This document shows, in pieces, positions 1 through 15,115 of a stretch of DNA of 32,196 bases (positions are counted from its first letter, which is position 1; every line of letters begins with the position of its first letter). The stretch is from Alcaligenaceae bacterium (GTDB lineage Bacteria > Pseudomonadota > Gammaproteobacteria > Burkholderiales > Burkholderiaceae_B). The notes under the pieces are model-generated. The model did no database searches, was not told the DNA's origin, and was given only the letters and a program-made list of their open reading frames with translations. The stretch is taken from assembly GCA_030538235.1 (NCBI GenBank), contig JAUNUJ010000004.1, forward strand, positions 225,835-258,030. The letters are read 5' to 3'. A program made the position numbers and the translations under genes.

Positions 1-839
1 CTAATTCAATAGGCGAACTAGCTAATGCTGCAATCAATTCAAATCCCCTATCTAAACTCAAAGCACTCAATAAATCGCTTATGTCTGAATCTAACTTGTT
101 AGCAGCGGTAAGGGAGTCAATGGAAAATACGAATTTGATTCTAAAAAGTTTAGATCAGCCTGAATGGATAGAATCTATCAATAAAATAAATCATCTATCA
201 ATTAAAGTTTTTGATCAAAATGATGCTTATTCTCAACTTATTGAAAATATTGAATCATTGTCTAAACTATATAAATTTGAAGCATTTAACTCTATTGGTA
301 GCCTACGTAATTCACCTTTAAATCGTTTTTCTGAATTAGTTGAGTCAACATTTACACACAGTAAAGATATCTATAACATCCACAAATTAGTTGATGATAT
401 AAACACGGAAATTGCACAAACCGATGATTTTGAAAAGCTACCTGCAACTGTACAGAATAAAATATTCCATTTTTTAAATTGTGTATTTCTAACTATCTGT
501 CTTAACTTGTTTAGCAGTTTCTTATATGAGCAAATAATATCACTTGCTAAGGTATTACAACCATTGACACAATCATCTGAAATCAAAAGTTTTGCACGAA
601 ATGCTTCTGCTCACTATGACCGCGACCTCCTTAGCAGCTTCAGAGTTATCATTGGTAAAAACGTGAACTTAAGAGCATCTCCTTCTATGAGTTCTGACGT
701 TATTCTGCAATTAAATATTGGTACATTAGTTGAAGTCTTGGATAAGTCCGACAGGGCTTGGCTTCTTGTTGAGATATCAGATGGTGATGATATTATTCAA
801 GGTTGGGTTGCTAGACGATACACTACCTATTTCAAATAA
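1..839 (+). CDS. SH3b-domain protein, 5' end outside window
   Basis: The frame is open from base 3 through an ATG at 81 to the stop at 837-839. That ATG has no clear ribosome-binding site, so the gene probably starts upstream of the window and this is its C-terminal part. The last 65 residues or so form a bacterial SH3 (SH3b) domain: 'NLRASPS' followed by a hydrophobic strand, 'VEVL' and 'GWVARRY' near the end. SH3b domains usually bind peptidoglycan or other ligands. The rest is helical and polar, with a hydrophobic stretch around residues 133-160 (from the ATG) that could be a membrane segment. It is convergent with the TnsE-like gene, 57 bp away, and is AT-rich, so it is probably cargo of the transposon. 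I do not recognise the N-terminal region and assign no function. Confidence 0.75.
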   Translation, partial: NSIGELANAAINSNPLSKLKALNKSLMSESNLLAAVRESMENTNLILKSLDQPEWIESINKINHLSIKVFDQNDAYSQLIENIESLSKLYKFEAFNSIGSLRNSPLNRFSELVESTFTHSKDIYNIHKLVDDINTEIAQTDDFEKLPATVQNKIFHFLNCVFLTICLNLFSSFLYEQIISLAKVLQPLTQSSEIKSFARNASAHYDRDLLSSFRVIIGKNVNLRASPSMSSDVILQLNIGTLVEVLDKSDRAWLLVEISDGDDIIQGWVARRYTTYFK

Positions 840-896
840 AGCAAGATAAAAATTTCCACTGTTAGAAAACCCATATCTAATAAAATCAAACAAACA

Positions 897-2672
897 TCAT
901 AAGTCAACACCCATTTTTTTCAACGCATTACGAACTGCTGATTCGCAGGGTACTTTATCAGTGTTTGAAGCTGTATGTCGAAAACAAGCCGCTCTGACCT
1001 GACAACAAGGTATTAACTTCTTTAATACCCCCTTCACTGCTCTAGTTTCAATTAGAACTCTAGCTAACCAATGATCTAAACTGGCTTGGTTATTTAACTG
1101 AAATACCAAGCCCTGAAAAGCTTCTTCTGAATCTACGACGCTGCCCTGTTGATTTTTTCTATTTTGTGAGCGCCGCTGTATTTCAAGTATGTAAACTGGT
1201 TGGCCGTCAATTACTACTCTGACCACAAGCACTCCACGTAGCAACGAAGTATTAAGTTCTATATACGGCCAATTACGTGTTGTTTTGTCTTTTGGCGCAT
1301 CTTTAACTCCATACGGCTCAAAAGCAATAAGAGTTGGTTCGATTTCATGACTAAAGCCTGTTTCGGGTGAATACCATGTTACAGAGCTAATTCTGTGTGG
1401 ATAGTGATTTTTAAAAAATAAAGCGGCATTCCACATATCTCTGAGAATGCCGTAAGACTCCAGCGTAGGAGTATTTTTTTTGTGAATACCTAAACCCCCA
1501 ATTTCTTTTTCCGTTCCATAAGCATCACCGCCTGAAACAGTTCCAACAATATCACTTGTAGGAACTGAATTCACAGAGATAGCATCCGAACTTTTACTTG
1601 TATAGTGCTTAACAATAGGGTTATAAGAACCTAATACTTCAAAATCAGAGTCATTAATAATCAATGAAGCTACATCTCTATCAGGCGCTAAAAAAGACGT
1701 AGCCGGTGCTAAATCAGAAAAATCTGCTAATTTTTTTTGTCCAATGTCGATAGACTCATCTTCATTAACATCACCTTCTTCTTTAGAGGATCTTTCTTTA
1801 ATCAAATTTATTTTTGGACTTTCTGGATGACTTAAGCCAGTAATACGAAGCCCTAAAAAAGATCTTCCTTCGTCAAATTCAATACCCTGAACTCTTAGCT
1901 GAACACGTTTTTGATGCCAAGGACCTACACGTATAAAAGCCAAGGATTCAAGATGAGAAAACTGGATTTCGAGTTGAGGATAAATACTTTTAACAGCTTT
2001 GCGAGTATAAGGATCGTATTTTAGATGTGCCAAAGGTATAGCATCTGCATCAACTAATTTTTTACCTATGGCCACAGTCCATTCACCCGGCGTTTCTGTA
2101 ACGCTATAAGAAGCATAAAGACGTTCTCGTACTAAATTCTCCCACGGATATGTTCCGATACAACGCCTAAATTCCGCAGAAGTTCCATAACAACTAGTAA
2201 AAAACTCTAAGCATGGAATAACTAACTTACCTTCCTCTAGATTAAAACTGACTAACCAATTAACATCTCGTTCATATTTCAATGGATATATTTGCATAGG
2301 AAAAGGTCCATCTTTTTTTTGATGAAAATTTTCATACTTCCAATATTCCTTTTTGAAATCAAGCTCAAAAAGGCGTGTTTTAAAAACCAACTTGCCTACA
2401 CATACACCATTTTTCCATACTGTTCCAATGTTCAATTGACTCAAAAGAACCAACGAAACAGATTCAAAAACCATAGAGTTAGAAAATTCATTATTGCCTA
2501 TTAATTTGCGAAAACCCACCAATACTAAGGGCTGTGAATTATCACGATTATTTTTAGTTATATCGCAATACCACCAAACGACATATTTAGCATCATCAAG
2601 ACGTGAAAAATTGAGTTTTAAGTCACGACTAGCCTTTTGAATATTACTCTTAAGAATGATTGGTTTATTCAT
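897..2672 (-). CDS. TnsE-like transposon targeting protein
   Basis: A 591-residue protein whose layout fits TnsE of Tn7 (about 540 aa). TnsE is the accessory factor that steers Tn7 to replicating DNA, conjugal plasmids and the lagging strand through the sliding clamp. Shared-looking elements are an N-terminal beta-rich part with a 'VVWWY' strand (residues 31-35), an 'IPCLEFF' helix with Cys-rich continuation (152-171) resembling the IPxLELxRS stretch of TnsE, a strand block near 255-280, a long polar variable linker (about 295-415), and a C-terminal alpha/beta domain with 'VYILEIQRR' followed by helices (about 495-560). The ATG at 2672 lacks a good Shine-Dalgarno sequence. Transcription runs away from the comM junction into the element. 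Similarity was judged by eye and is remote; a generic transposon-borne hypothetical protein is the alternative. Confidence 0.55.
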   Translation of the reverse strand: MNKPIILKSNIQKASRDLKLNFSRLDDAKYVVWWYCDITKNNRDNSQPLVLVGFRKLIGNNEFSNSMVFESVSLVLLSQLNIGTVWKNGVCVGKLVFKTRLFELDFKKEYWKYENFHQKKDGPFPMQIYPLKYERDVNWLVSFNLEEGKLVIPCLEFFTSCYGTSAEFRRCIGTYPWENLVRERLYASYSVTETPGEWTVAIGKKLVDADAIPLAHLKYDPYTRKAVKSIYPQLEIQFSHLESLAFIRVGPWHQKRVQLRVQGIEFDEGRSFLGLRITGLSHPESPKINLIKERSSKEEGDVNEDESIDIGQKKLADFSDLAPATSFLAPDRDVASLIINDSDFEVLGSYNPIVKHYTSKSSDAISVNSVPTSDIVGTVSGGDAYGTEKEIGGLGIHKKNTPTLESYGILRDMWNAALFFKNHYPHRISSVTWYSPETGFSHEIEPTLIAFEPYGVKDAPKDKTTRNWPYIELNTSLLRGVLVVRVVIDGQPVYILEIQRRSQNRKNQQGSVVDSEEAFQGLVFQLNNQASLDHWLARVLIETRAVKGVLKKLIPCCQVRAACFRHTASNTDKVPCESAVRNALKKMGVDL

Positions 2673-2685
2673 AATTGAACTATTA

Positions 2686-2708
2686 GCATTTATTTCTATA
2701 AATTATAG
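2686..2708. repeat. Internal copy of the transposon end repeat, overlapping a palindrome
   Basis: GCATTTATTTCTATAA at 2686-2701 matches the two terminal repeats (GCATCTATTTCTATAA at 3518) with one mismatch and in the same orientation, but lies about 850 bp inside the tip and only 14 bp before the TnsE-like start codon. It overlaps a 13-bp near-perfect palindrome (CTATAA-A-TTATAG, 2696-2708). A TnsB-like protein could bind here and repress the gene, as TnsB is known to repress tnsABC at the Tn7 right end. It could also be a relic of a second end. Confidence 0.5.
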
Positions 2709-2778
2709 TTCAGTAAAATTAAAATTAGCAGTAATTGAAACTAAGAACTAATTGTTGGCTTCTACCATTTTAACAAAA

Positions 2779-3038
2779 CTACTCTTTATTAAGCTCTGCC
2801 ATTAGTTCTTCAACGCTATCAAAGCTTTTAAATTTACCACATTCAAACTCTAGCATTGCACGCTTAGTTCTATCATTAGGGATTTTCACACCTTTAACGG
2901 AATGACTTTAGTTTCCACTATTTGTTGAAAGAATAGCTGAATGGCTTGCTCTGGTGTAACTCCATGACTCTTGATAATAGTGAAAGCATCTTCTTTTAAC
3001 TGCTTATCTATATCAATAGTAAACTTAGTTGTACTCAT
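2779..3038 (-). pseudogene. RelB/DinJ-family antitoxin, frameshifted
   Basis: From an ATG at 3038 with a good GGAG ribosome-binding site, the frame encodes 50 residues of a RelB/DinJ antitoxin: 'FTIDIDKQLKEDA' (ribbon strand), then 'HGVTPEQAIQLFFQQIVE' (helices of the ribbon-helix-helix fold). It stops at 2886. The typical C-terminal tail, 'KIPNDRTKRAMLEFE' followed by 'FDSVEELMAEL', continues immediately in another frame and stops at 2779. A single-base loss near 2886-2895 would explain this. No RelE/YafQ-type toxin gene follows: only about 106 bp separate it from the TnsE-like gene. It looks like the decayed antitoxin of a lost toxin-antitoxin pair, though a short functional form or a sequencing error cannot be excluded. 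Confidence 0.7.
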
Positions 3039-3125
3039 TATTAGCTCCAACTCGAATTCATAAATTGACGATACACCCAAACATCCATTCTTTAGTAGCA
3101 CATTCATACGATTAGGAAATTGATC

Positions 3126-3192
3126 AACCACTATGATGTTTTTGTCCACCTTTGATCATTCCCATTTTCTACAAACTACACTGATGTTTTTG
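3126..3192. repeat. Pair of 19-bp imperfect direct repeats, 48 bp apart
   Basis: The copies are 3126-3144 and 3174-3192 and match at 16 of 19 positions; both contain TGATGTTTTTG. They overlap the left arm of the 13-bp inverted repeat at 3158. Repeated sites of this kind occur at the ends of some insertion sequences, such as the IS21 family, so this may be an IS remnant. That link is a guess. Confidence 0.35.
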
Positions 3193-3371
3193 CGTATGAA
3201 AACCATCTGCCCAATTTGCCACAAACATTATCATCTATCCAGAATGACTTATATCATCAAAAATAGAACTCGTGTTTTTCCTCGTGATAATAAGTGCTTC
3301 ACAGTACTTAAGTGTAATTGCGATAGCATGACGGTCATAAAAGACTCAACTGCGCCGCAGAAAATGGGAAT
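3158..3371. repeat. 13-bp perfect inverted repeats bounding a 214-bp segment
   Basis: ATTCCCATTTTCT at 3158-3170 is exactly complementary to 3359-3371. Just outside both arms there is a further TTTGA match, offset by two bases. The segment contains most of a small Cys-rich ORF (3184-3384). It could be a miniature mobile element or the two ends of a collapsed insertion sequence. No target duplication was obvious. Confidence 0.45.
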
Positions 3372-3384
3372 TCAAACACCTTAA
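3184..3384 (+). CDS. Small Cys-rich (zinc-ribbon-like) ORF, possible gene
   Basis: An ORF of 66 residues from the ATG at 3184, or 62 from the ATG at 3196. It has a CPIC pair near the N-terminus and a CNC pair about 35 residues later, a spacing compatible with a small zinc ribbon. A strong intrinsic terminator lies 33 bp after the stop codon on the same strand, which supports transcription. Against it, neither ATG has a recognisable ribosome-binding site, and the C-terminal codons run through the right arm of an inverted repeat. No family is recognised. It may be a transposon cargo gene, a fragment, or chance. Confidence 0.3.
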   Translation: MFLRMKTICPICHKHYHLSRMTYIIKNRTRVFPRDNKCFTVLKCNCDSMTVIKDSTAPQKMGIQTP

Positions 3385-3416
3385 CAGTCTTGTCTAGTTA
3401 TACATTATTAATCTTG

Positions 3417-3444
3417 AAAAAGCTAATCTATAGGTTAGCTTTTT
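3417..3444. terminator. Strong bidirectional intrinsic terminator
   Basis: AAAAAGCTAA (3417-3426) pairs perfectly with TTAGCTTTTT (3435-3444) around an 8-nt loop, giving a T-run on both strands. It separates the transposon interior from the tip and the truncated comM gene. Confidence 0.65.
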
Positions 3445-3517
3445 ATTTAACTGCAATTGGAGAAATAAATTTTTATAGAAAATTGAATGTTAAAAATATT
3501 TATTCATTGAGGTTTTG

Positions 3518-3558
3518 CATCTATTTCTATAATTTTGTATTTATTTCTATAATTTACA
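3518..3558. repeat. Transposon terminal repeats (TnsB-like binding sites) and tip
   Basis: Two tandem copies with a 20-bp period: GCATCTATTTCTATAATTTT at 3518-3537 and GTATTTATTTCTATAATTTA at 3538-3557, ending in ACA at 3556-3558. A degenerate third copy may start near 3501 (TATTCATTGAGGTTTT), and an inverted partial copy lies at 3472-3484. Tightly packed tandem sites resemble the right end of Tn7 rather than its left end. The neighbouring comM bases GCCAC (3559-3563) are the expected 5-bp target duplication, but only one side is visible. Confidence 0.65.
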
Positions 3559-4464
3559 GCCACCACCCAAGAGCGCCGGATCAGAAATCGAATGATGCGG
3601 CGCTCTGAATGGGGGCCTAAAGCCCGCATCAACAATGCCACTGCCCGTCACACTCTGAATCGCCAATAACTCCAAACGCTCTAAGTTTGTCAGATCAGGC
3701 AAAATCGTCGGCAAGCGTTGAGCTAACATAGTCTTACCCACACCCGAGGGACCACTTAACAATAAGCTGTGGCCTCCACTCGCTGCTAACTCTAACAAAT
3801 GACAAGCTTGCTCTTGGCCCCGCACATCCGACATGCATAGCTCAGCCTCAGAACCCTGCTCTCGCAGAGAGGCAGCATCACCACCAAACACGTCGCCATA
3901 GGTAGCGGGAGAGCTTGGCTTAATACTGCGTTTAACCTCTAGATGCTCAACCACTTCTTTAAGGCTATTTGCCCCAATCACTGTGAGTCCGTCAACTAAG
4001 GCGGCCATCTCCGCATCTGCTCTTGGCATCACTAAAATCGCCCGAGGATCACTTTTATATATGGATAAGGCCAGAATTAACGGTGCCTGTATTGAAACTA
4101 GCGCGCCGGTCAAAGACAATTCACCGACAAAATACATATGCGGCACCTGTTGCTGATGCTGTTTTGAGGACAGATGCACTTGCCCGGTGGCCATCAGGAT
4201 GCCTAAGGCAATAGGCAAATCAAAGCGGCCGGACTCTTTAGGTAAATCAGCAGGTGATAAATTGACCGTAATACGACCAATCGGAAACTCATAACCCGAA
4301 CTGAGAATGGCAGTGCGAACACGATCGCGACTTTCCTTGACCCCGGTACTCGCTAGACCGACCAGTAAAAAATTGGGCAGACCCGCACCAATATGGACTT
4401 CTGTGCGCACCAGGGCGGACGACATACCCACCAGGGCACAGCTATTTAAAACAGCAAGAGCCAC
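3547..4464 (-). pseudogene. comM/yifB, truncated by the transposon
   Basis: This is the N-terminal 302 residues of ComM (YifB), a Mg-chelatase-like AAA+ helicase of about 500 residues that promotes branch migration during natural transformation. Visible are the N-terminal Lon-S5-like domain (start to about residue 180) and the Walker A motif 'GPSGVGKTMLAQ' (about 240-251). The reading frame then reaches 'APHHSISDPALLGGG' and enters the transposon, which adds C-K-L and a stop. The Walker B motif and the whole C-terminal half are missing, so an ATPase cannot be made from this fragment. The start is a GTG at 4464 with AAGGAG six bases upstream; an overlapping ATG is out of frame. ubiK lies about 100 bp upstream of it on the same strand, a common pairing. 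Confidence 0.88.
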
Positions 4465-12123: not shown

Positions 12124-14100
12124 TTAAGATTTAGCGCCTTCGACAATCACATCACGCTTAAGGGCGATGTCGTCAGATAAACGCTGAATAAAATCTGCTA
12201 CGGGCATAACGCCTAAATTGTGGTTACCACGAGCGCGCACGGAGACCGTACCCTCGTCACGCTCTTTTTCACCTACTACCAGTATATAGGGTAGTTTCTG
12301 CATGGCATTTTCGCGAACCTTTTTGTTGATTTTCTCATTACGAATATCAGCAGATGCGCGGAATCCCTTGTCTTTGAGCTGCTTAACCACTTCCATGGCA
12401 TAGTCATCGAACTGACCCGAAATGGTACAGACCTTAACATGCTCAGGTGATAACCATGGCGGCATGGCACCGGCATAATGCTCAATCAGCATACCAATAA
12501 AGCGCTCAAAAGAACCTAAAATGGCACGATGCAACATGACCGGTGTTTTGCGCGTGTCATCTGCTGCCACGTATTCGGCGCTCAAACGCTCAGGCATCGA
12601 GAAGTCCACCTGAATTGTACCGCACTGCCAGTGGCGACCGATCGCATCCCTAAGGGTATACTCAATCTTGGGACCATAGAAGGCGCCCTCTCCTGGTGTA
12701 ATTTCAAACTCACAACCGGACTTTTTGAGACTCTCCATCAGCGCAGCTTCGGACTTATCCCAAACTTCATCGCTACCGATACGCTTCTCGGGACGAGTTG
12801 CAACCTTGAACAATACATCAGTGAAACCGAAGTCCTTGTAGACCTTTTGTAGTAATTCGGTGAACTTTGCGCATTCTTCTTGTAGCTGATCCTCAGTACA
12901 GAAAATATGACCATCATCCTGAGTAAAACCGCGCACACGCATCAAGCCGTGTAATGAACCGGAGGGTTCATTACGATGACACTGGCCGAACTCACCATAA
13001 CGAATCGGTAATTCACGATAGGAATGTAAACCGGAATTAAAAATCTGCACATGACCCGGACAGTTCATCGGCTTCAAACCATAAACCCGACTCTCGGACT
13101 CTGTGGTAAACATATTGTCCTGATAGTTATCCCAGTGACCGGTTTTTTTCCATAAGGAGACGTCCAAAATCTGCGGTGCTTTGACCTCTTGGTAACCATT
13201 GTCCACGTAGACACGGCGCATATACTGCTCTACCTGTTGCCAGATTTGCCAACCCTTGGCATGCCAGAAAATCAGGCCTGGCGCCTCTTCTTGGAAATGG
13301 AATAAATCCAGTTCGCGACCTAATTTACGGTGATCCCGCTTTTCGGCTTCCTCTAGCATGGTCAAGTAATTATCTTGCTCTTGCTTAGTGGCCCAAGCCG
13401 TACCGTAGATGCGTTGGAGCATCTCATTGTTGGAATCGCCGCGCCAATAAGCACCGGCTACCTTCATCAGCTTGAAAACCTTGAGCTTACCGGTTGATGG
13501 CACGTGAGGGCCACGACATAAGTCAATAAAATCACCCTCGCGGTAAAGCGTAATTTTCTCATCGCTGGGAATTGATTCAATAATTTCAGCTTTGTACTTT
13601 TCGCCAATACTGTTGAAAAAATCGACCGCTTCCTGACGATCCCAAAGCTCTCGCGTCACCACTTCATCACGGTTCGCGATCTCGTGCATTTTCTTTTCGA
13701 TTTTTTCGAGATCTTCGGGAGTAAATGGACGTTTGTAAGAGAAGTCGTAATAGAATCCGTTATCAATCACCGGGCCGATGGTCACTTGAGCATCAGGATA
13801 CAGCTCCTGTACTGCGTAAGCCATCAAGTGAGCGGTGGAGTGGCGAATAATATCCAGACCGTCTTCGTCTTTGGCAGTAATAATAGATAAAGCAACGTCC
13901 TCGTCGATCAGAAAACTAGTATCGACTAAACGACCCTCGCTGTCCGTGCTGCTCGTACTATCCTGTGCGGCGATCGCGGTGACTTTACCACCAAGAGCCG
14001 CCTTGGCAAGGCCAGAACCAATAGACGCAGCAACGTCATGAACAGTGACGGGTTGATCAAATTGTTTGATAGAACCGTCGGGTAAGCTTACATTAATCAT
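12124..14100 (-). CDS. thrS: Threonyl-tRNA synthetase
   Basis: ThrRS charges tRNA-Thr and edits mis-charged serine. At 658 residues it has near-typical length. In order: TGS domain (1-about 60, '[13 protein letters not shown]'), the second N-terminal editing domain with '[16 protein letters not shown]' and 'GFYYDF', then the class II catalytic core with '[10 protein letters not shown]' (zinc Cys), motif 2 '[20 protein letters not shown]' and '[10 protein letters not shown]', and the C-terminal anticodon-binding domain ('[20 protein letters not shown]'). The ATG at 14100 has AAGG about nine bases upstream. It leads into infC. An intrinsic terminator lies between its promoter and its start codon, suggesting transcription attenuation. 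Confidence 0.97.
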
Positions 14101-14110
14101 TATTTACCTT

Positions 14111-14145
14111 AAAACACAAAAACGCGACCAAAACCGAAGTCGCGT
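14111..14145 (-). terminator. Intrinsic terminator in the thrS leader
   Basis: On the minus strand ACGCGAC (14145-14139) and its partner GTCGCGT (14128-14122) form a 7-bp stem with a 10-nt loop, followed by TTTTTGTGTTTT. It lies between the predicted promoter (14185-14213) and the thrS start at 14100, so it may act as an attenuator. It could also be the leftover terminator of a lost upstream gene. Confidence 0.6.
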
Positions 14146-14184
14146 CACAAAGAAACAAAATCTTTGCACTAATTAGCATCGGTT

Positions 14185-14213
14185 ATTTTAACACTTATAT
14201 AAGAGAAGTTTAA
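14185..14213 (-). promoter_or_regulatory. Predicted thrS promoter
   Basis: On the minus strand TTAAAC (14213-14208) and TAAAAT (14190-14185) are 17 bp apart. The -10 is good and the -35 is weak. Transcription would begin near 14178, giving a leader of about 78 nt that contains the terminator hairpin. Confidence 0.4.
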
Positions 14214-14319
14214 GTTTAGACAGCGATAGTTAGCTATTTTCCCAGCTTATTAAGACAATTTGTAGCGAATATGTATTTAACAATAGCGAGAAGTGAATAT
14301 GCTAAAATTCACTGTTAAT

Positions 14320-14342
14320 TCAAACCCTTTGGGGGGGTTTGA
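14320..14342. repeat. Inverted repeat with a seven-G run before the gene at 14375
   Basis: TCAAACCC (14320-14327) pairs with GGGTTTGA (14335-14342). The loop side carries a run of seven G (14331-14337), about 37 bp before the start codon. It could be an operator or a site of slipped-strand length variation. No T-run follows. Confidence 0.4.
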
Positions 14343-14374
14343 AAGCCTACTGATTTAATAATTTATCAATTCGT

Positions 14375-15115
14375 ATGAGCAGATCAATTTCCACCCTGGT
14401 TTTATTAGGCATTTCGACCCTGATAGTACTATTTATTTTAAGTTCATTTTACAAGGTTTTCAATCGAGAACCCATACACGGTCAAAGTCCTACGATAGAG
14501 ACTGAGCAAAGCGATGCGCTAGTCAAGCGCCCCACCTCTTCTGCAACAAGCTCGGACTCAACAGTTAGTAGCGAGAGTGACGAGGCCACCACTGAGTCTG
14601 ACGCCGATAGCAGCTTTGCGACGACTACCGATGGCGACAGTGAAAGCTCTTCGGACTCAAGCGAATCCCTAGAAGAGCTTGTCAGCAGCCCTGAAGATTT
14701 AGAGGAAACGGAAATCGAGGAAGCGGAAATCGAGGTTGTCGGCACTCCGGGGGATGTACTTCACGAACGACCGCATCTACAAAACGCCCTGCCTCCGATT
14801 CCACAAGCCCCACCTAGCCCACAGGGAGCACCGGTAGTCACAGCGCCAAGTGAGGAGTCCTATTCGCAAACCGGCGGCGGAACCCAAGGCAGCTTTCCTA
14901 CACCGGTCATTGTCAGTCCCCCCCCGGCAGGTGGCTCCAGTTTTCCCGCGCCAATAGCACCGGTGATTACGCCAACACCAACGCCAACGCCGGCCCCGAC
15001 ACCAAGAGCACCGACCCCGAGCAACACAGGTGGCAGCTCCTTTCCTGCCCCTATAATTAATTCGGGCATTGGTGGCACCCGTTCAGGCTCAAGCAGTTTT
15101 CCTGCGCCACAATAA
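14375..15115 (+). CDS. Membrane-anchored low-complexity protein with SSFPAP repeats
   Basis: A 246-residue protein with an N-terminal membrane anchor (about residues 7-27, 'LVLLGISTLIVLFILSSFY') and no lipobox. Residues about 50-125 are Ser/Asp/Glu-rich and highly acidic. The C-terminal half is Pro/Thr/Gly-rich with four degenerate copies of G-S-S-F-P-A-P ('GSFPTP', 'GSSFPAPI', 'GSSFPAPI', 'SSSFPAP') ending one residue before the C-terminus, plus a Thr-Pro dipeptide run. No enzyme domain is seen and no family is recognised. It probably exposes a flexible tail in the periplasm. The start has no clear ribosome-binding site. It stands alone, divergent from thrS and convergent with lon across a shared terminator. 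Confidence 0.65.
   Translation: MSRSISTLVLLGISTLIVLFILSSFYKVFNREPIHGQSPTIETEQSDALVKRPTSSATSSDSTVSSESDEATTESDADSSFATTTDGDSESSSDSSESLEELVSSPEDLEETEIEEAEIEVVGTPGDVLHERPHLQNALPPIPQAPPSPQGAPVVTAPSEESYSQTGGGTQGSFPTPVIVSPPPAGGSSFPAPIAPVITPTPTPTPAPTPRAPTPSNTGGSSFPAPIINSGIGGTRSGSSSFPAPQ

Follow-up and report, generated by a model that had tools for sequence, protein, structure and literature searches.

A Tn6022-family transposon at the comM site of an Alcaligenaceae bacterium

The question raised by this locus is what interrupts the comM gene of an Alcaligenaceae bacterium, and which protein directed the insertion there. In the DNA stretch analyzed here (32,196 nucleotides, G000:C1:225835-258030, hereafter the window; the genome comprises 2.43 Mb in 14 contigs), comM lies on the minus strand. 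Its frame reaches ...ISDPALLGGG and continues for three more codons in the inserted element, which supplies the ending CKL* (open reading frame (ORF) 3547-4464). A preliminary description of the sequence had recognized this passage from an unbroken comM frame into element sequence, and had interpreted it as a Tn7-like end at an exact comM site, read by a TnsD/TniQ-type protein. We conclude that the element is almost certainly a Tn6022-family transposon, that is, a Tn7-like and TnsF-guided one, inserted at the standard comM site of its family. What the preliminary description observed is confirmed, and neither of the findings that it named as refutations turned up. Its interpretation is partly supported: it was right in kind, and the name should be Tn6022/TnsF rather than TnsD/TniQ.

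When the junction was used as a DNA query, an inverted second copy of the tip was found in the same contig, 18.7 kb leftward. The transposon runs from C1:210647 to C1:229392 (window position 3558) and measures 18,746 bp, including 100 N. The part left of the window (G000:C1:210647-225834) holds tnsABC-tniQ-tnsF, a type III restriction-modification (RM) system, DUF5131 and two TcmP genes. The left tip is TGTAAATTATAGAAATAAATGC at G000:C1:210647 and the right tip terminates in ...TATTTCTATAATTTACA; both inverted tips start with TGTAAATTATAGAAATAAAT, and GCCAC stands immediately outside each of them. The matching tip and the duplication are thus present where the preliminary description had proposed to look for them. 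The ends are of the TGT...ACA type and contain several repeats that are probably bound by TnsB, four sites in the left end and two in the right. The two tandem 20-bp repeats described earlier at 3518-3557 are present and are better defined as 18-bp sites at 3515-3532 and 3535-3552, lying 20 bp apart, with scores of 27.5 and 24.8. The end sites score 22.4-27.5, values that are partly circular because the matrix was built from these six sites, including the two at the right end; the best score in 20 mononucleotide shuffles of the element interior was 17.7.

The C-terminal half of comM that was expected farther left was found on the other side of the element (L003, about 13938-14647). By joining both flanks and removing one GCCAC, an uninterrupted frame of 536 codons is restored, 76% identical, with one gap, to that of a relative from the genus (L034). 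A comM match was observed in 37 of the 41 genomes compared (own included), for 35 of them within an open frame 500-599 codons long; the two exceptions are our genome, with a frame of 308 codons, and G004, where 40 residues match within a frame of 54, and the remaining four gave no match. Codon 302 is the last one before the break, which separates Walker A (starting at residue 238) from Walker B (LFLDE, starting at residue 318); a ComM product without ATPase function is therefore expected. Among eight genomes of the genus, TnsB was found in our genome only, and a recent insertion in this lineage is therefore probable. It would break ComM in a host with ComEC- and DprA-family genes; both families also have matches in many control genomes, E. 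coli included, and thus are no proof that the host is transformable.

The genes tnsA, tnsB, tnsC and tniQ, for which a search to the left had been proposed, are present in this order and are followed by a fifth core gene. From left to right, the products are TnsA, TnsB, TnsC, TniQ, TnsF, the type III restriction subunit and methylase, a helix-turn-helix (HTH) protein, DUF5131, two TcmP proteins, an SH3_3 ORF and TnsE. Faure et al. (2023, PMC10293859) describe Tn6022 as an element with TnsABC, a TniQ of 369 aa, a TnsF of 498 aa and a TnsE on the opposite strand, which inserts into comM. The same arrangement is observed here: tnsF directly follows a short tniQ, and the likely tnsE, toward the far end, is encoded on the opposite strand. 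The fifth protein, of 486 aa, shares 37-42% identity along its full length with four proteins encoded after tniQ in other elements, among them one from A. baumannii, and invariant cysteines are spread over the N-terminal 190 residues of the alignment. Identity to the copies of Gallionella, the Methylobacter plasmid, Geomonas and Halomonadaceae is about 40-46% over the full length, and the best pieces of three interrupted Acinetobacter copies reach 37-47%. As a TnsF, the protein would comprise zinc fingers and an inactive recombinase-like part.

Judged from sequence, the comM recognizer is most likely TnsF acting through the short TniQ, and not a TnsD-type protein, because this is a Tn6022-family element with a full-length TnsF homologue and the loss of TnsF has a published effect. 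In the published experiments, insertion of an A. johnsonii element was impaired by removing any of TnsA, TnsB, TnsC, TniQ or TnsF, and TnsF binding required a 10-bp region within the Walker B codons of comM (PMC10293859). By analogy, TnsF would bind comM in the region of its Walker B codons and TniQ would bridge it to TnsC, while TnsA and TnsB would excise the element and integrate it, duplicating 5 bp and leaving the tnsA side next to the 3' half of comM. That a TnsD-like TniQ itself reads comM, with the 486-aa protein as an accessory, is very improbable: TniQ is present and intact, as this would demand, but it is short (364 aa), its neighbor is a TnsF homologue, and loss of TnsF impaired insertion of the A. 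johnsonii element, as cited. Of the earlier proposal of a TnsD/TniQ-type recognizer, the tniQ gene is there and TnsD was not borne out. A TnsD-guided Tn7 with a long TnsD and its DNA-binding extension was considered and rejected; the only TniQ has PF06527 on residues 9-147. Canonical Tn7 has TnsABC genes in common with our element, and a TnsE-type second selector to judge by profile matching, but it uses TnsD at glmS according to a review (PMC11406308). The same review lists Tn6022/AbaR as comM-targeting.

PMC11406308 and PMC10293859 also report comM as a target of type I-B CRISPR-associated transposons (CASTs) and Tsy elements. CAST-labelled TniQ models of PADLOC match our TniQ, and its Cas3c model gives a weak match (E 0.0022) to the type III restriction subunit. 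The former matches are, however, accounted for by the TniQ domain, which all Tn7-like elements share, and the latter by the helicase that the restriction subunit contains (REase_III match of this subunit, 1.9e-113). Library scans gave no other cas, tyrosine-recombinase or GIY-YIG match (for the ORF cut by the assembly gap they covered the window part, and CRISPR arrays were not searched for). An element of either type is hardly conceivable here, and a Tsy element, which combines a tyrosine recombinase and active TnsF with no tns genes, is ruled out by tnsABC.

The position of the insertion was compared with that of relatives. A genome scan with a TnsF alignment gave 36 TnsF loci, 33 with a tnsA end and three without tnsA (L077, L078, L098); comM directly adjoins the tnsA end in 26 of the 33. 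All 29 comM junctions read, including our own, fall on the same comM nucleotide, with the tip always 17 bp before the PGE codons and the 5-bp repeat ending on the third glycine codon. A motif search yielded 27 of them (from 24 of those 26 loci, our own genome, G133 and G058), and those of L064 and L068, which the motif missed, were read by eye. The tip reads ACA in 28 and AGA in L080, the same locus as G180. These junctions represent the tnsA side; the other side, read in our genome, L068, L076, L058 and G180, agrees in all five. The Tn6022/AbaR elements of Acinetobacter share the gene order, short TniQ, TnsF and opposite-strand TnsE with our element, as well as the 5-bp repeat at the same comM nucleotide (ten Acinetobacter loci read). 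They differ in the end-site sequence, in the position of tnsE, which is displaced in our element, and in cargo, ours being type III RM, DUF5131 and TcmP. The AbaR duplication is ACCGC, and its complement GCGGT was read at L085 of A. beijerinckii; a literature search for ACCGC with comM and Tn6022 found nothing.

The TnsC tree gives the same kinship. TnsC lies within a 41-row clade of the 59-row tree (support 99/99) together with TnsF elements of Acinetobacter, Halomonas and Gallionella; L007, also in this clade, ends before the tnsF position. Within it, a subclade of 25 rows (84/94) unites our element with those of Gallionella, the Methylobacter plasmid, Geomonas and Halomonadaceae. At L056 (G058) and L097, TnsF-like proteins were observed beside comM with a TnsC outside the 41-row clade, and given these two, comM targeting may be older or common to several branches. 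In Halomonas sp. PA16-9 (L058), the comM 5' half stands at the right end; this copy looks rearranged because no comM was found beyond tnsA.

As regards the host, a TniQ match was found in 24 of 300 genomes of the same order (own included), a domain that covers many other Tn7-like groups. G180, G133 and G058, the three inspected for comM, carry a comM fragment beside tnsA, so that at least three other genomes of the order do; G180 has both halves. TnsF elements beside a comM fragment also occur in Gallionella, Geomonas, Halomonas and Acinetobacter, and comM adjoins the tnsA end, as here, in Gallionella L064, in Geomonas L065 and, among the 12 Halomonadaceae loci that include this end, in 9. A TnsF match was obtained in 3 of 369 genomes of the class, own included, and a literature search for Tn6022 with betaproteobacteria returned nothing. 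The betaproteobacterium-like host, earlier regarded as a notable extension, is a weak claim in view of the comM-inserted relatives in the same order and in Gallionella; it is at most a small extension of the host range. The element is real, nearly complete and ordinary for its family, and it leaves the picture of the Tn6022 family unchanged. As a nearly complete and divergent transposon guided by TnsF in a host other than Acinetobacter, it can serve to compare TnsF recognition of the same comM codons among Pseudomonadota and one Thermodesulfobacteriota genome (Geomonas).

The 591-aa protein at the right side received no name from Pfam, NCBIfam or PADLOC scans or from a PDB sequence search. Other TnsF elements carry homologues of it, likewise on their right side. 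A profile of seven such homologues (own included, two partial) was compared by hhalign with a profile of seven Tn7-type TnsE proteins, six annotated in plasmid records and one found by PF18623. The match had a probability of 84% (E 7.6e-6) over 434 columns in order, at about 13% identity; as a control, both TnsE profiles were compared with TnsF and gave 0.6% and 0.2%. A TnsE_C family search matched one of the 369 class genomes, which was not ours. Because of the profile match, and as published for the family, the protein is likely a remote TnsE and a candidate selector of plasmid or replication-fork targets, which would allow the element to reach plasmids as well. According to the review (PMC11406308), nearly all comM-targeting elements have a TnsE homologue.

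Several observations weigh against a Tn6022-family element at its standard site. Seven of the 33 tnsA-end loci lack comM (L072, L073, L075, L091, L095, L096 and L099; L091 begins close to tnsA, and L095 and L096 are plasmids), and there is none beside tnsA in the A. baumannii copy L060 or the Methylobacter plasmid copy L057. Such elements outside comM would be expected, since the family has a second, plasmid route. TnsF is only 34-38% identical to the full-length Acinetobacter copies. The TnsE assignment depends on the profile match, a structure model from a 5-row alignment being too poor (pLDDT 45). The tnsE start codon lies 886 bp from the tip, unlike that of the four relatives inspected (L068, L076, L058, G180), where it lies within about 0.2 kb. 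Finally, the element is interrupted by a scaffold gap of 100 N (L004:13736-13835), directly before window base 1; the two ends are taken as linked on the basis of the scaffold, of comM halves that complement each other and of the duplication, which is identical on both sides.

Some of these features would also suit a defective relic or chimera, which arrived by the Tn6022 route and was later rearranged at the right side and became immobile. This would add to the Tn6022-family reading. The displaced tnsE with an antitoxin remnant between it and the tip, a second tnsE 3' remnant and the gap speak for it, but both tips and the duplication are intact, and we consider it unlikely, although worth keeping in mind. 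The second remnant (L004:13071-13234, C1:225070-225233) lies left of the repeat ORF, and its alignment score of 166 compares with 53 for the best of 50 shuffles; it suggests past recombination between related elements. An internal TnsB-like site precedes tnsE and scores well above the 15.8 of the best site among the host sequence of the window; as a sequence motif it is possibly an operator or a relic of an older right end. The 0.8-kb stretch from tnsE to the right end had no other match in the eight genus genomes, and window 2640-3600 had no match in plasmids. The displaced tnsE and the second remnant may reflect cargo exchange by recombination at tnsE. We speculate, with considerable doubt, that Tn6022 elements swap cargo in this way, and that the displaced tnsE keeps a TnsB-like operator of its own, by which TnsB control of the plasmid-targeting gene would be maintained apart from the transposon end.

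Table 1. Features of the element and of the interrupted comM gene (window positions unless stated otherwise).
Feature	Position	Strand	Length	Match or remark
Right-hand 3.6 kb of the 18.7-kb transposon	1..3558	.		
SH3_3 ORF, 3' part (cargo), repeat-containing, C-terminal SH3_3	3..839; whole ORF L004:13282-14674	+		PF08239 1.6e-9
Likely remote tnsE homologue	897..2672	-	591 aa	
Internal TnsB-like site, just upstream of tnsE start codon	2684..2701	-		score 23.0
RelB-type antitoxin remnant	2886..3038	-	first 50 codons, remainder in another frame	PF04221 6e-8; three-frame translation
Right end: tip ...TTTACA and two TnsB-like sites (3515-3532, 3535-3552)	3515..3558	-		
Target-site duplication GCCAC (comM sense: GTGGC)	3559..3563	.	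5 bp	other copy C1:210642-210646, outside window
comM 5' part, Walker A retained, Walker B lost	3559..4464	-	302 codons	PF13541 1e-34, PF01078 1.9e-30
TnsA			229 aa	PF08722/PF08721
TnsB			638 aa	Mu-transpos_C, rve
TnsC			296 aa	TniB PF05621 1e-70
TniQ			364 aa	PF06527 2.3e-17, on residues 9-147
TnsF homologue, Cys-rich, fifth core gene			486 aa	start overlaps tniQ end by 4 bp
Type III restriction subunit			898 aa	PADLOC model; REase_III 1.9e-113
Type III methylase			610 aa	PADLOC models
Small HTH protein			110 aa	
DUF5131 protein			251 aa	4.3e-108
Two TcmP-family proteins			433 and 289 aa	6.7e-65 and 8.4e-53

In the cargo, the 100-N gap to the left of the window interrupts the SH3_3 ORF. Inspection by eye showed similar repeats in this ORF, each about 50 codons long, which may be the cause of the gap. 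The RelB-type remnant stands between tnsE and the right end. Matches of the DUF5131 and TcmP genes to the PADLOC candidate models PDC-M30/M41 were also observed. Among 44 loci searched, two (L057 and L065) hold DUF5131 and TcmP together, and many hold partial cargo only. This cargo is thus present in three TnsF elements from very different hosts, our own (L004:10049-12986), Methylobacter (L057:28837-30885) and Geomonas (L065:13983-16856), of which the Methylobacter copy differs from ours in its location on a plasmid.
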